A stretch of 64,000 bases of DNA from Archangium lipolyticum (GTDB lineage: Bacteria; Myxococcota; Myxococcia; Myxococcales; Myxococcaceae): assembly GCF_024623785.1 (NCBI RefSeq), contig NZ_JANKBZ010000026.1:1-64000 (forward strand), read 5' to 3'. Under the pieces are notes generated by a model, which saw only the letters and a list, made by a program, of their open reading frames with translations, did not search any database and was not told the origin of the DNA. The translations under genes and the position numbers were made by a program. Numbering within the stretch: the stretch's first letter is position 1; each line of letters starts with the position of its first letter. Shown piece after piece: positions 51,758-57,239 of the stretch.

Positions 51758-52639
51758 ATGTCCACCCTCGTCCGCCCCTCGTTCCGCGCACTCACCCTGC
51801 TCTGCTCGGCCTGCCTGGGCCTGACGGCCGCGCACGCCGTGAACTCGGTGGTGGAGGTATGGCTCCTGCCATTCCCCTCCTTCGAGCAGACGGCACCGCC
51901 CCCGCCGAAGAAGGAGGAGCTGCCCACCCCGCTCGCCCTGGCGCCGCTCGCCCGGTACACAGGCTTGCCAGACAAGCTGCGTGATCAGGTCATCCCCACG
52001 GACACGGGAGACGGGCCCATGCCGACCGTGCTGGAGCTGAAGCTGCTGGGAACGATGATGGCGTCCCCTCCGGCCATCTCCCTCGCGTCCGTGTACGAGG
52101 GACCCGCGCGCCGCACGCGCTCGGTATGGACGGGTGGGGAGGTCCTCGGAGCGGAGGTGATCGCCATCGAGCGCACACGGGTGCTCATCCTGAACGCGGG
52201 GCGGCTGGAGTACATCGGCTCCGACTCCGGAAAGGACACCGGGAGCACGGAACCGCGTGCCTCCAGTCCTCCGGCCCCGGCGGAAGCGACGTCCGGCATC
52301 GCCATCCGGCAGGTGGGGCCACAGGTCTACGAGCTCTCACGCCAGGAAGTGGACACCCTGCTCGCCAACCCCAGCGACCTGCTGATGCAGGCGCGCATCG
52401 CCCCCGCCTTCAGGGACGGCAAGCCGCAAGGATTCAAGATGTTCGCCATCCGGCCCGGCTCGCTCTACGTCCGGCTGGGCCTCCAGAACGGGGACACACT
52501 GCGGCGCATCAACGGGCTCTCACTCGAGAGCGTGGAGCAGGGGCTCGAGGCCTTCCACCAGCTGCGCGATGCCTCGCGCATCGAGCTGGAAGTGGAGCGC
52601 AACGGACAACCCGTCCGCTACACCTATTCGATGCGTTAG
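51758..52639 (+). CDS. GspC-like protein, orphan type II secretion component
   Basis: A 293-residue inner-membrane protein: one N-terminal hydrophobic segment (about 9-29), a Pro-rich linker, a homology-region domain ([24 protein letters not shown]...[13 protein letters not shown]) and a C-terminal PDZ-type domain ([32 protein letters not shown]). This is the layout of GspC, which links the inner-membrane platform to the secretin. No other gsp gene is present in the window, so it may be a second copy or serve another envelope complex. Its stop overlaps the convergent oxyR stop by four bases. Confidence 0.83.
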
Positions 52640-53565
52640 GAACGCTTCGCCGGATTCTTGAGCCCGGGCCACACGGAGCGGAGCGTGCCGGCGAGTTCCC
52701 GGAGCGCATCGGCCCGGGGGTAGCCCGGCCGCCAGACGAGGACGAGGGTGCGGCTCGGCACCGGGTCCGAGAAGGGACGCACCACGAGCTGGCCCAGCCG
52801 GTTCTCGATGGGCACCGAGAGCGAGGGCAACAGCGTGATGCCGCTGACACCCGCCATCACCATCTGAGCCAGGGTGGTGAGGCTGGTGGCGCGGAAGTCC
52901 ACCTCGCGAGCCCCCACCCGCGTGCACAGGGCGAGCGCCTGTCCCCGGAAGCAATGGCCATCCTCCAGCAGGAGCACGTTCTCCTCGTCCAGGTCCCGGA
53001 GCTGCACCTGCTTCTTCTTCGCCAACGGGTGCCCCGGGGGCGCGGCGACGACGAACGGGTCCTCCGCGATGACGGCGTGCTCCAGATCACCCAGGTCGGC
53101 CTCGAGCGCCAACAACGCCGCGTCCAGCCGCCCCTCTCCCAGGGCCCGCACGAGCAACTCCGTCTTCTCCTCGCGCAGCCGGAGCTGGAGCCGGGGGTAT
53201 TGCTTCGTCAGCGCGGGCACCACCTCGGGCAGCACATAGGGCGCGATGGTGGGGATGACCCCCAGGTGCAGACTGCCCGCGAAGGGGTCGGACAGCCGGG
53301 CCGCCGCGGACAGGATGTCTCCCGCCTCGGTGAGCACCCGGCGCGCCCTCGCCACCAGGTCCTCCCCGGCGGCGGTCAGCATCACCCTGCGCTTGTCCCG
53401 CTCGAAGAGCTTCACCCCCAACACGTCCTCGAGCTGCTGGATCTGCGCACTCAGGGCCGGCTGGGAGACGTGGCAGTGCTCGGCCGCCCGCCGGAAACCG
53501 AGCAGGTCCGCGACGGCGACCACGTACTCCAACTGCCTCAGGGAGATGTCGTTGATGGAAGGCAT
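52636..53565 (-). CDS. oxyR: OxyR-type peroxide-sensing LysR regulator
   Basis: A 309-residue LysR-type activator. The N-terminal HTH ([27 protein letters not shown]) is followed by a regulatory domain with [12 protein letters not shown], in which Cys205 and Cys214 have the same nine-residue spacing as the redox cysteines of E. coli OxyR. ATG 53565 was chosen because the longer frame (to 53604) would run through the binding site at 53581-53617. It diverges from the catalase-ankyrin operon that it should activate under peroxide stress. Confidence 0.92.
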
Positions 53566-53580
53566 GGGTCTGGAGAACCG

Positions 53581-53617
53581 ATAGCCCCAGCCTATCAATC
53601 CCATCGGAACGATGTCT
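53581..53617. promoter_or_regulatory. OxyR-binding site between oxyR and catalase
   Basis: The sequence reads ATAG-N7-CTAT-N7-ATCG-N7-GTCT, which compares with the OxyR consensus ATAG-N7-CTAT-N7-ATAG-N7-CTAT. Two elements are perfect, the third has one mismatch, the fourth two, and all spacings are exact. It lies 75 bases upstream of the catalase start and 15 bases upstream of oxyR. Confidence 0.75.
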
Positions 53618-53691
53618 TGGGCAACTCAGCACGAACTCTCTACTTTTCTCCTCGTCACGAACGCCGTGACACCACCCAGGAGAGAGTTCAC

Positions 53692-55164
53692 GTGTCCAAT
53701 CGTCCCCATCTGACCACCGAGGCCGGCGCTCCCGTCGCCAACAACCAGCACTCGCAGACGGCCGGCGCCACGGGCCCGGTGCTGCTGCAGGACCACCACC
53801 TCCTGGAGAAGCTCGCCCGCTTCAACCGCGAGCGCATCCCGGAGCGCGTGGTGCACGCGGTGGGCTCGGGCGCCTACGGCTACTTCGAGGTCACCAACCC
53901 CGACATCTCGCGCTTCACGCGCATGAAGCTCTTCAACGCCCAGGGCAAGCGCACCGAGGTCTTCCTGCGCTTCTCCACCGTGGCCGGCTCCAAGGGCGCC
54001 CCCGACACCGCTCGCGACCCGCGCGGCTTCGCGGTCCGCTTCTACACCGAGGACGGCAACTGGGACCTGGTGGGCAACAACACCCCCGTCTTCTTCCTGC
54101 GCGACGGCATCAAGTTCCCGGACTTCATCCACTCGCAGAAGTACGACCCGTTCACCAACTGCCAGGAGCCCGACAACCAGTGGGACTTCTTCTCGCACTC
54201 GCCCGAGGCCACGCACCAGTTCACCTGGCTCTTCGGTGACCGCGGCATCCCCGCGACGCTGCGGCACATGGATGGCTTCGGCTCGCACACCTTCCAGTGG
54301 GTGAACGCCCAGGGCGAGCGCTTCTGGGTGAAGTTCCACTTCAAGACCAACCAGGGCATCCGCACCCTCTCCTCCGAGGAGGCCGCGGCCATCGGCGGGA
54401 GGGATCCGCAGTACCACCAGCGCGACCTCTACGCGGCGCTCGAGCGCGGCGACTTCCCCTCGTGGACGCTCAAGGTTCAGGTCATGCCCGAGGCCGACGC
54501 GCCCACCTACCGCTTCAACCCCTTCGACCTCACCAAGGTGTGGCCCTACAAGGACTACCCCCTCATCGAGGTGGGCCAGCTGGTGCTCAACCGGGCTCCG
54601 GACAACTACTTCGCCGACGTGGAGCAGGCGGCGCTCGACCCGTCCAACTTCGTGCCGGGCATCGGCCCCTCGCCAGACCGCATGCTCCAGGCGCGCCTCT
54701 TCGCCTACGGCGACGCGCACCGCTACCGGCTCGGCATCAACCACACCCGGCTGCCGGTGAACTCGCCCAGGGGCGTGCAGGGCGGCGCGCGCAACTACGG
54801 CCGTGACGGCGCCATGAGCTTCGACGGCAACGGTGGGCGCGCCAAGAACTACGAGCCGAACAGCTTCGACGGCCCCGCGCAGACGAACGAGGACCCGGGC
54901 CTCGGCGTCTCCCTTAGTGGCTCCACGGGCACCTACGTCCCCGTGCGGCACGCCGAGGACAACGACTTCGTGCAGGCCGGCGCCCTGTACCGGGTGATGA
55001 GCGAGGAGGAGCGCGTGCGGCTGGTGAACAACATCGCGGGCAGCCTCTCACAGGTGAGCCGCGAGGACATCATCGCGCGCAGCATCGCCCACTTCCGCAA
55101 CGCCGACGAGGAGTACGGCTCGCGCATCGCGAAGGCCGTCCACGAGCGCCGCCGCTCGCGCTGA
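53692..55164 (+). CDS. Monofunctional haem catalase (small-subunit, clade 3 type)
   Basis: A 490-residue catalase that dismutates hydrogen peroxide. The distal-side [17 protein letters not shown] carries the catalytic His, [16 protein letters not shown] and [15 protein letters not shown] are typical, and [14 protein letters not shown] holds the proximal Tyr haem ligand. Length fits the small-subunit class. GTG 53692 is the start, with AGGAGA upstream; the same frame continues upstream only as a shadow of oxyR. It is controlled by the OxyR site at 53581-53617 and cotranscribed with the ankyrin gene 36 bases downstream. Confidence 0.95.
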
Positions 55165-55200
55165 ACCCACTTCCCTCCCCCACTCTTCGAGGACTTTCCC

Positions 55201-55752
55201 ATGAAGGCACAGACCCCTGATTCGCGACCGATGGTGACGGACAACGACGTGTTGGAGCTGGCGCGCACGGCCTTCCAGCACGCGAGGGCCGGGGAGACGG
55301 CCCTCCTGGGGAGGCTCCTCGAGGCGGGGCTGCCCGCCAACCTCACCAACGAGCGGGGAGACACCCTGCTGATGCTCTCGAGCTACCTCGGCCACGAGGA
55401 GACCACCCGGCTCCTCCTGAAGCACGGGGCCGATCCGGAGCGGCTCAACGATCGTGGCCAGACGCCGCTGGCCGGTGCCGCCTTCAAGGGCAACCTCGAC
55501 ATCGCACGGCTGCTGCTGGACCACGGCGCGCGCGTCGACGGTACGGGGCCGGACGGCAAGACGGCCCTCATGTTCGCGGCGATGTTCGACCGGAAGAACG
55601 TGCTCGAGCTGCTGGTCGCGTACGGCGCGGATCCGGAGCGCAAGGACGCCGACGGGCGCACGGCACTCGATTACGCCCGTGCCATGGGCGCCCGGGGCAC
55701 CGCGGAGCGGCTCGAGAAATTGCAGGGGACGCGCGAGCAACGCGCGTCCTGA
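55201..55752 (+). CDS. Ankyrin-repeat protein linked to catalase (AnkB-like)
   Basis: A 183-residue protein with about four ankyrin repeats (GDTLLMLSSYLGHEETTRLLLKHGADPERL, GQTPLAGAAFKGNLDIARLLLDHGA, GKTALMFAAMFDRKNVLELLVAYGADPE). No signal peptide. It follows catalase after 36 bases and is ended by a hairpin. In Pseudomonas an ankyrin protein, AnkB, is encoded behind katB and is needed for full catalase activity; this arrangement looks equivalent. The role here is inferred from gene order. Confidence 0.87.
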   Translation: MKAQTPDSRPMVTDNDVLELARTAFQHARAGETALLGRLLEAGLPANLTNERGDTLLMLSSYLGHEETTRLLLKHGADPERLNDRGQTPLAGAAFKGNLDIARLLLDHGARVDGTGPDGKTALMFAAMFDRKNVLELLVAYGADPERKDADGRTALDYARAMGARGTAERLEKLQGTREQRAS

Positions 55753-55766
55753 CAAAGCCTCACACG

Positions 55767-55791
55767 GGCCACCGTGCGCCGTACGGTGGCC
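55767..55791 (+). terminator. Terminator-like hairpin after catalase-ankyrin operon
   Basis: GGCCACCGT (55767-55775) pairs perfectly with ACGGTGGCC (55783-55791) around a seven-base loop, 15 bases after the ankyrin stop. No U-run follows. Confidence 0.6.
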
Positions 55792-55848
55792 AGACAGTCG
55801 CCGGAACCCGGCTTGACAAAAAACGCGTGCACACGCACCTTGCGTGAC

Positions 55849-55926
55849 GTGAGCTTCGTTTCCGCCATCACCACCACGACCACCACCGCCACTCTCTTCG
55901 GCGGGAGTGGATTCGTGCGCGCGTGA
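55849..55926 (+). CDS. Threonine-rich leader peptide of the ThrRS-like gene
   Basis: A 25-codon reading frame from GTG 55849 to TGA 55924-55926. Codons 8-13 (55870-55887) are six consecutive Thr codons (five ACC, one ACG), and codon 15 (ACT) is a seventh Thr. It ends 107 bases before a threonyl-tRNA synthetase-like gene, with alternative hairpins and a U-run between. This is the arrangement of amino-acid attenuation leaders such as thrL. No Shine-Dalgarno sequence is visible; a TTGACA at 55813-55818 would place the transcription start at or next to the GTG, so a leaderless start is possible. Too short for routine gene callers. Confidence 0.7.
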   Translation: MSFVSAITTTTTTATLFGGSGFVRA

Positions 55927-55939
55927 TGAGCTGACGAAC

Positions 55940-56015
55940 GCACGGTTCCCTGCCCCGCCTCTCCGGCCGGGGCGTCCGTGCAAGCGCTCAGTGCTCCGAC
56001 CGGAAGGCCTCTTTT
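55940..56015 (+). promoter_or_regulatory. Candidate transcription attenuator of the ThrRS-like gene
   Basis: Two mutually exclusive structures: an upstream hairpin with GCACGG (55940-55945)/CCGTGC (55976-55981) and GCCCCG (55952-55957)/CGGGGC (55968-55973), and a downstream one with GCCTCTCCGG (55957-55966)/CCGGAAGGC (56000-56008) followed by CTCTTTT (56009-56015). The 5' arm of the second lies in the loop of the first. A Shine-Dalgarno GGAG for the synthetase gene follows at 56024. Confidence 0.55.
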
Positions 56016-56033
56016 CCTGATTCGGAGTCTGAA

Positions 56034-57239
56034 ATGCTCGAAGAACACGATCACCGCTCCCTCGGCCAGCGCCTGGACCTCTTCCACATGCAGGAGGAGG
56101 CGCCCGGCATGGTCTTCTGGCACCCGCGCGGCTACCTGCTGTACCGCCTCATCGAGAACCGCGTCCGGCAACAGATGCAACGCGATGGCTTCCTCGAGGT
56201 GAGGACGCCTCAAATCCTCGCCCAGCCCCTCTGGGAGCGCAGCGGCCACTGGGACAACTTCCGCGAGAACATGTTCCTGCTCGCCGAGGACGGCGGGCGG
56301 CACATGGCGGTCAAGCCAGTGAACTGCCCCGGTCACATCCAGCTCGTCCAGCGCATGTCCCCCAGCTACCGGGACCTGCCCGTGAAGCTGGGGGAGTTCG
56401 GGCTCGTGCACCGCAACGAGCCGGGTGGAGCGCTCCACGGCCTGTTCCGCCTGCGCCAGTTCACGCAGGATGACGGCCACGTCTTCTGTGCCGAGGAGCA
56501 GATGCGAGAGGAGGTCTCCCGCTTCTGCCGCTCGCTCCACGCCTTCTACGCCGACTTCGGCTTCGAGGACGTGGAGGTGGCCTTCTCCAGCCGTCCCGCC
56601 CAGCGCGCCGGAAGTGACGAGATGTGGGATCTCGCCGAGTCGCTCCTGCTCGAATCCGCGAAACAGGCGGGGCTCGAGTGCGTCATGCAGCCCGGCCAGG
56701 GGGCCTTCTACGCGCCCAAGCTGGAGTTCGTCCTGAAGGACCGGCTTGGCCGCAGCTGGCAGTGCGGGACGATCCAACTCGACCTGGTGCTGCCGGAGCG
56801 GTTCGACATCCACTACGTGGACGCCTCGGGACAGAAGCGCCGGCCGATGATGCTCCACCGAGCGATTCTCGGAAGCCTGGAGCGCTTCATGGGCATGCTG
56901 CTGGAGCACCACGGAGGCGCCCTGCCCGCGTGGCTCGCACCGGAGCAGGTCGTCGTGGCGTCCGTGGCCGAGGCGGCCGCGGGCTACGCCGAGCGCTTCG
57001 CCGCGAAGCTGCGCGAGGTGGGCTGCCGCGCGAGCGTGGATGCGCGGGGTGAGTCGCTTTCACGGAAGATCGTCGACTCACACCAGGCTGGAGTGCCGTG
57101 GCTGGTGGTGGTGGGTAACCGGGAGGTGGAGAAGAACGCCGTCCGGCTGCGGCGGAGGGACGGCGAGCAGCGCGACCTGCCCTGGGACGAGGCGGTGGCG
57201 GCGCTCGTCGCTGAGTGCCGGCCGGCAGCCGCGGCGTGA
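56034..57239 (+). CDS. Threonyl-tRNA synthetase paralogue lacking TGS and editing domains
   Basis: A 401-residue class II synthetase. It begins directly at the catalytic core (DHRSLGQRLDLFHMQEEAPG), so the roughly 240-residue N-terminal TGS and N2 editing domains of standard ThrRS are missing. The zinc ligands are kept (Cys in NCPGH, His in DDGHVFC, His in LHRAILGS), as are motif 2 (VHRNEPGGALHGLFRLRQF), motif 3 (HRAILGSLERFMG) and the C-terminal anticodon-binding domain (VVVASV...VDARGESLSRKI). It should charge tRNA-Thr but not clear Ser-tRNA-Thr in cis. ATG 56034 has GGAG seven bases upstream. It is preceded by a Thr-codon leader peptide and followed by a long hairpin. Editing-deficient second ThrRS enzymes are known in cyanobacteria. 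Confidence 0.9.
   Translation: MLEEHDHRSLGQRLDLFHMQEEAPGMVFWHPRGYLLYRLIENRVRQQMQRDGFLEVRTPQILAQPLWERSGHWDNFRENMFLLAEDGGRHMAVKPVNCPGHIQLVQRMSPSYRDLPVKLGEFGLVHRNEPGGALHGLFRLRQFTQDDGHVFCAEEQMREEVSRFCRSLHAFYADFGFEDVEVAFSSRPAQRAGSDEMWDLAESLLLESAKQAGLECVMQPGQGAFYAPKLEFVLKDRLGRSWQCGTIQLDLVLPERFDIHYVDASGQKRRPMMLHRAILGSLERFMGMLLEHHGGALPAWLAPEQVVVASVAEAAAGYAERFAAKLREVGCRASVDARGESLSRKIVDSHQAGVPWLVVVGNREVEKNAVRLRRRDGEQRDLPWDEAVAALVAECRPAAAA

Follow-up and report, generated by a model that had tools for sequence, protein, structure and literature searches.

The 64,000-nucleotide stretch of Archangium lipolyticum DNA analysed here (the window) contains a short open reading frame (ORF) rich in Thr codons, followed by a chain of alternative RNA helices and by the gene for a short threonyl-tRNA synthetase (ThrRS). 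The reading that we favour, and to which we assign a probability of about 0.6, is that this region acts as a ribosome-mediated attenuator: it would sense charged Thr-tRNA and thereby set the translation of a spare ThrRS. A first-pass annotation of this DNA had already proposed that an editing-less ThrRS is controlled by ribosomes stalling at the Thr codons, and conservation in 67/67 orthologous loci of the order supports this proposal at the level of sequence. The positions of the features are given in Table 1.

Table 1. Features of the leader region and of the short ThrRS gene (positions in the window)
Feature	Position	Strand	Remarks
-35 element TTGACA	55813..55818	+	TTGAC in 67/67 orthologous leaders, 35-39 nt upstream of the leader start codon
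-10-like hexamer CACCTT	55836..55841	+	17-bp spacer from the -35 element
Thr leader peptide ORF VSFVSAITTTTTTATLFGGSGFVRA	55849..55926	+	25 codons; GTG start at 55849, stop TGA at 55924-55926
Thr codon run	55870..55893	+	six consecutive ACN codons (55870-55887), one Ala codon, seventh Thr codon (55891-55893)
0:A hairpin	55880..55910	+	Thr codons paired with GGCGGGAGTGG; proposed protector; mean z -1.96 (23 representatives)
Segment A	55900..55923	+	makes up the 3' half of the leader ORF; can pair with C (A:C mean -31 kcal/mol, z -2.7)
Segment C	55939..55959	+	block in the alignment of 67 leaders; pairs with A or D
Segment D	55960..55981	+	C:D mean -26.6 kcal/mol, z -3.1
Segment E	55989..56005	+	anti-Shine-Dalgarno, alternative partner of D; E:F mean z -3.1
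Segment F	56021..56032	+	contains the Shine-Dalgarno GGAG (56024-56027), invariant in 67/67
Short ThrRS	56034..57239	+	401 aa; catalytic core and anticodon-binding domain only

The presence of a Thr-codon leader in front of the short ThrRS gene is confirmed, and it is far above chance. The 25-codon frame with six Thr codons and a seventh, as originally annotated, is present in the window, and the check suggested at that time, a search for Thr-codon runs upstream of orthologous short ThrRS genes, found them in 67/67 loci of the order. The leader ORF is open in all these orthologues, has a length of 21-28 codons with 6-10 Thr codons each, and its start, frame and stop are kept. In the leader alignment, 62, 66 and 67 of the 67 rows have Thr at codon columns 7, 8 and 13, respectively, and at column 10 Thr is found in 31 of the 32 rows having letters there. 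The third base of the Thr codons varies at columns 7, 8 and 10 and is constant at column 13 (pooled over the leaders: C 321, G 125, T 76). At these core positions the amino acid Thr is preserved, and the third-base changes are mostly synonymous. An explanation by chance, or by a role of the Thr run in RNA pairing only, is extremely improbable: although the Thr codons take part in the 0:A hairpin and GC-rich DNA often contains ACC repeats, all six frames of the 64-kb window together hold 4 distinct runs with at least 6 Thr in 10 codons (leader run included), as against 67/67 of the upstream regions, and neither the conserved start, frame and stop nor the mostly synonymous third bases fit such an origin.

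The gene behind the leader encodes a threonyl-tRNA synthetase, as judged by the cut-off of the NCBIfam thrS profile and by key residues. The profile matches only from its position 170 on (463.9 bits; cut-off 383.65 bits) and the only Pfam matches are tRNA-synt_2b and HGTP_anticodon, from which it follows that the TGS and editing domains are absent; the TGS and N2 domains of an editing-competent enzyme are thus not found. These domain matches, together with the GGAG in front of the start codon, agree with the initial description of a Shine-Dalgarno sequence followed by a ThrRS paralogue without TGS and editing domains. The enzyme may, as was also supposed there, be fast and of low fidelity. The Zn ligands and the motif 2 and 3 Arg residues (E. 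coli numbering) and the equivalent of Gln484 are present in 67/67 short orthologues. A full-length ThrRS of 643 aa, 44% identical to the short enzyme, is encoded elsewhere in the same 12.6-Mb genome and is one of four tRNA_SAD matches in it. The short ThrRS of the window shares 49-53% identity with eight full-length proteobacterial ThrRS and 43-46% with 19 housekeeping ones. In a midpoint-rooted tree of 43 sequences, with long branches for F_L169, S_L069 and S_L070 and a caution from the program that sequences may be joined falsely, the short ThrRS constitute one group (100/100) that lies apart from both the host housekeeping and the full-length proteobacterial enzymes.

A short ThrRS orthologue occurs in 67 of the 145 genomes of the order (E 1.9e-149 or better), and all 67 loci were retrieved; two of them, L069 and L070, are truncated at contig ends (357 and 366 aa). 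In locus L006 (G046) the short ThrRS frame is broken by a TAG after 348 codons and the leader is intact. A phylum-wide search of 195 genomes yielded one further short ThrRS outside the order (locus L169 of genome G162, 56% identity). Its leader, VRRAPHGATTTTTVKSGAVVVCAR, has five Thr codons and, judged by eye, a TTGACA upstream at similar distance. A short ORF rich in codons for the amino acid that would be sensed is therefore found before the matching gene in 67/67 loci and at one distant locus. For comparison, 21 other thrS loci (L002 and L151-L170) were inspected, comprising 19 full-length housekeeping genes, the short gene L169, and L168 (G012), a 427-aa open frame with no ATG upstream that we classed neither as short nor as full-length. 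When 350 bases upstream of each (149 bases only for L167) were searched for a Thr run (5 Thr in 10 codons), none was detected at the 19 housekeeping loci or at L168; L169 was the only one of the 21 to have one. Among 80 named loci, a short gene together with a Thr run was found only in A. violaceum and M. xanthus, two further apparently short loci being cut by contig starts.

The leader and the gene stay paired while their neighbours change, since the neighbours seen in the window are rare at other loci: within flanks of ~1.5-2 kb (shorter at contig ends), the ankyrin neighbour stands beside the short ThrRS gene in 10/67 loci and the dehydrogenase neighbour in 5/67. Just upstream of the leader region in the window, positions 52636-55752 hold a minus-strand LysR-type regulator-like gene, a catalase-like frame and a small ankyrin-repeat-like gene, named from their translations alone. 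A covariance model was built on the stretch downstream of the leader ORF from 28 of the 67 leaders (under 92% identity). It matched 67 of the 195 genomes once each, and 66 of these matches are at short ThrRS genes; the remaining one (G022, E 0.004) is probably due to chance. The model missed G162 and also G122, whose leader (L070) was read directly. Apart from the weak G022 match, no other leader copies were detected in the 195 genomes with strict filters and 20 candidates scored per genome.

The alignment of the 67 leaders contains five blocks, A, C, D, E and F. Neighbouring blocks are complementary to each other, and A is complementary also to the Thr codons that precede it. As read from these complementarities, the conserved element is a relay of the helices 0:A, A:C, C:D, D:E and E:F, of which the last member is the Shine-Dalgarno sequence of the ThrRS gene. 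The alternative hairpins claimed in the first-pass annotation exist in the leader, and the complementarity between neighbouring segments is conserved in the orthologues, D:E being the weakest of the relay. From this arrangement we infer the following order of events, response to Thr shortage and benefit. With enough Thr-tRNA, the ribosome would reach the stop codon and cover A, and C:D would form; E would then be free to pair with F, and the Shine-Dalgarno sequence would be closed (OFF). If the leader is unread, 0:A would form, with the same outcome (OFF). A ribosome stalled on the Thr codons would cover 0 and leave A free, A:C would form, and the D segment thereby released would pair with E, opening the Shine-Dalgarno sequence (ON). 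The benefit would be extra Thr-tRNA synthesis when the housekeeping ThrRS cannot keep up.

The helices were analysed by strand shuffling, partner swapping and structure sampling in 23 representatives of the 67 leaders (under 88% identity). All five helices exceed helices with one shuffled strand on average, with mean z values of -1.96 (0:A), -2.71 (A:C), -3.13 (C:D), -1.42 (D:E) and -3.11 (E:F); for D:E the excess over shuffled E is mild, and 4/23 representatives are below z -2. When partners were swapped between species, 0/2000 permutations were as good as the cognate combination for each of A:C, C:D and E:F, so that these three hold up against swapping as well as shuffling; 0:A passes the shuffle test, and D:E fails the swap test (1911/2000 permutations as good). 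Since some of the pairs intended as controls score moderately (A:F 44, O:E 76 and C:E 97 of 2000), the swap test is not perfectly clean. Duplex prediction gives D:E in 22/23 representatives; in the 23rd (L069) it is seen only by eye. One E:F pair is U-A in 40 sequences and A-U in 19. At column 221 of E, 28 sequences have a C that is unable to pair with the Shine-Dalgarno A, and D pairs there in 67/67. A first model, in which the stop-codon region would pair with the anti-Shine-Dalgarno segment (B:E) as the ON helix, was rejected; the energies were small, and 703/2000 (B:E) and 229/2000 (B:E1) permutations were as good in the swap test.

Base pairs were also counted over the alignment. The OFF helices are paired in 87.2% of cells, and 68 cells have changed on both sides; shuffles gave 23.4 such cells, and versions in which the helices were slid gave no more than 28. 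The number of OFF pairs with a both-side change is not above shuffles (189/500 shuffles as high), and neither are further pair types (491/500 as high). For the ON helices, 91.4% of cells are paired and 18 have changed on both sides, compared with 6.3 in shuffles. The proportion of paired cells in slid versions is 31-56%; the ON helices slid by +1, however, have 25 both-side cells, above the 18 of the true version, and this control slightly lowers our confidence in the attenuator reading.

For the 192-nt leader the calculated folding energy is -89 kcal/mol (z -4.87), and 0/200 shuffles were as stable. In equilibrium folding the Shine-Dalgarno sequence is mostly closed in 67/67 leaders in each of three ribosome states, with a mean unpaired probability of at most 0.43. 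Masking a ribosome at the middle Thr codon gave a cost of opening the Shine-Dalgarno sequence of 6.0 kcal/mol, versus 8.9 kcal/mol with the ribosome at the stop codon and 9.1 kcal/mol with no ribosome, and the cost was lower in the stalled state in 22/23 representatives and 62/67 leaders overall. Yet the same fall (-3.2 kcal/mol) was obtained with segment A shuffled, and the difference between the untranslated and the stalled state is likewise independent of A; shuffling the 3' part of E gave a somewhat weaker fall (-2.2, 15/23, p 0.04). In structures sampled for the 23 representatives, A:C has a mean of 0.4 pairs without a ribosome and 4.4-5.1 pairs with a ribosome on the Thr codons, D:E rises little in the latter state (from 0.3 to 0.9-1.2 pairs), and E:F persists (11.8-11.9 vs 13.6-14.8 pairs). 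Masked equilibrium folding was accordingly discarded as proof of the switch, because the trend in 22/23 is equalled by the control with shuffled A. As this trend survives the shuffling of A and the site stays largely closed whatever the ribosome state, it is conservation, and not the predicted energies, that supports the relay. The RNA folding that had been suggested as a check therefore bears out a strong and stable fold of the leader but does not by itself demonstrate a ribosome-dependent switch.

The first-pass annotation had placed the control at an intrinsic terminator, formed by the second hairpin and CTCTTTT. These letters are indeed present at 56009-56015, but they sit in the loop of the Shine-Dalgarno hairpin and are not conserved. 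A run of 5 T after the C:D hairpin occurs in 0/67 leaders; the longest run there is four T in 12/67 and at most two in 34/67, and at least 5 T within some 8 bases after this hairpin are present in 11/67. A terminator scan of 55760-56060 gave no site near 56015, and the two sites that it did give are both near the leader start (55839-55853 on the plus strand and 55836-55823 on the minus strand). In the more distant genome G138 (L069) the C:D hairpin is followed by GTTTCGCTTTTCT, which seems the most terminator-like tail among the leaders read by eye. The last alternative helix covers the Shine-Dalgarno sequence of the ThrRS gene, as in translational attenuators, and an intrinsic terminator with a U tract in front of the structural gene, as in transcriptional ones, was not found. 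With no conserved U tract, no terminator at the site and a relay that ends at the Shine-Dalgarno sequence, control by an intrinsic terminator, as originally claimed, is not upheld, and control is probably translational.

Transcriptional attenuation, in which the last hairpin and the U-rich stretch 56009-56015, or Rho, would stop the transcript in the absence of a ribosome stalled at the Thr codons, is in our view unlikely. A Thr leader with alternating helices is typical of transcriptional attenuators, CTCTTTT does occur in the window, four-T runs or at least 5 T in some 8 bases follow the C:D hairpin in the 12 and 11 leaders mentioned above, and a Rho-dependent version would leave no sequence mark. 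It is the absence of a 5-T run from all 67 leaders, with a longest run of at most two in half of the orthologues (34/67), the empty result of the terminator scan at the proposed site, and the conservation of a last helix covering the Shine-Dalgarno sequence just before the ATG that argue for the translational mode. Control at that same place would also be expected from autoregulation. In E. coli, ThrRS binds a tRNA-like operator in the leader of its own gene, thrS, and the short ThrRS, which retains its anticodon-binding domain, might do likewise, the Thr codons then being incidental. We regard this as very unlikely, because autoregulation has no need of a Thr-codon ORF with free third bases in 67/67 leaders. 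A general Rfam search moreover had no operator-like family among its matches; it detected no thr leader, T-box or other known leader family, and its four matches are far under the gathering scores, with E up to 5.

The region upstream of the leader ORF bears on how the leader peptide would be made. The -10-like hexamer is mostly CAnnTT among the 67 leaders (A2 in 66/67, T6 in 48/67); it is weak compared with TATAAT, and a promoter scan gave no call at this hexamer. The leader start codon (GTG in 57 leaders, ATG in 10) lies 7 nt past the -10 hexamer in 59/67 and 6-10 nt past it in 67/67, and it is preceded by an SD-like sequence in 0/67. Because the spacings of the -35 and -10 elements place the expected transcription start at the leader start codon, the leader mRNA is probably leaderless. 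From this promoter spacing we infer that transcription would start at, or within ~1 base of, the leader GTG, the leader peptide being read from a leaderless mRNA.

Why a cell would keep such a spare enzyme is a separate matter. One answer, which concerns purpose and can therefore be combined with the attenuator reading, is that the spare enzyme protects the cell against compounds that inhibit ThrRS, such as borrelidin or obafluorin: inhibition of the housekeeping ThrRS would leave tRNA-Thr uncharged, the ribosome would stall, and a less sensitive spare enzyme would be made, as with trpRS1 of Streptomyces and indolmycin. PMC11252418 names positions Tyr462, Gly463, Gln484 and Leu489 of E. coli ThrRS, and describes changes of Gly463 to Ala or Ser that give obafluorin and borrelidin resistance. 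We compared the equivalents of these four residues in an alignment from which L168 was omitted and in which L169 was kept apart from the 19 housekeeping rows. The logic of such protection would work, and the window ThrRS does have Ala at the Gly463 position (residue 227); this Ala, however, is shared only with its closest relative, L005 (2/67), the other 65 short ThrRS having Gly. The residue at this position cannot therefore be the general reason for the spare ThrRS and was rejected as such, and we consider protection a doubtful purpose. At the Leu489 position, 19/19 full-length myxobacterial ThrRS (L002, L151-L167 and L170) have Ala, as against Leu in 66 of the short ones and Met in 1.

Myxobacteria develop on starvation. 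In its fullest form, the attenuator reading would have a leaderless, purely translational Thr-tRNA sensor with a five-helix relay turn on an editing-less ThrRS in Thr shortage, the cell tolerating or making use of Ser put in place of Thr, which trans-editing by the full-length ThrRS might hold in check, and thereby keeping translation going; we put this complete version forward only tentatively. If true, myxobacteria would control a tRNA synthetase through an attenuator specific to Thr, one that is apparently translational and works from a leaderless peptide. The leader and the short ThrRS would allow a direct test of why bacteria keep a non-proofreading ThrRS, including whether this enzyme is made exactly when Ser mischarging is likeliest, and the leader could be used in Myxococcus as a small natural readout of how well Thr-tRNA is charged.

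Several known systems share parts of this design. The enterobacterial thrL leader likewise combines a short leader peptide containing a Thr run with alternating hairpins, but its targets are biosynthesis genes, it responds to Ile as well, and it has a Shine-Dalgarno sequence and a U-tract terminator. Bacillus subtilis also has two ThrRS genes, and T-box control places a ThrRS gene under the control of tRNA charging; this occurs through direct tRNA binding and antitermination, whereas the myxobacterial leader has no Rfam T-box match. The closest precedent is trpRS1 of Streptomyces coelicolor, which, by the title of Vecchione and Sello 2010, is reportedly an auxiliary aminoacyl-tRNA synthetase gene under ribosome-mediated attenuation. 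It differs in that it concerns Trp, is transcriptional according to that title and encodes an antibiotic-resistant enzyme, whereas the last helix of the Thr leader closes a Shine-Dalgarno sequence. The novelty claimed for the Thr attenuator has to be narrowed accordingly: no report of a Thr version, of a myxobacterial case or of a relay of this kind was found in the open-licence literature searched, but trpRS1, by title, and a predicted hisS leader (PMC2965389) precede it as attenuators of synthetase genes. The latter is a predicted His leader peptide in front of hisS paralogues of bacilli; it resembles the Thr leader as an amino-acid leader peptide before duplicated synthetase genes, and differs in amino acid and phylum (His, Firmicutes) and in having been found through a search for premature terminators, hence being transcriptional. 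A leaderless leader peptide is known from the trpL attenuator of Sinorhizobium meliloti, whose RNA 5' end is the ATG of the leader ORF (PMC7298713); this is a Trp system with a transcriptional terminator and biosynthesis genes. Finally, Anabaena also makes, under stress, a second, editing-defective ThrRS, T2, beside a full-length one; according to PMC4787780, T2 is a protein of ~75 kDa with a degenerate editing domain that is induced by low zinc, whereas the myxobacterial short ThrRS is without the N-terminal domains.
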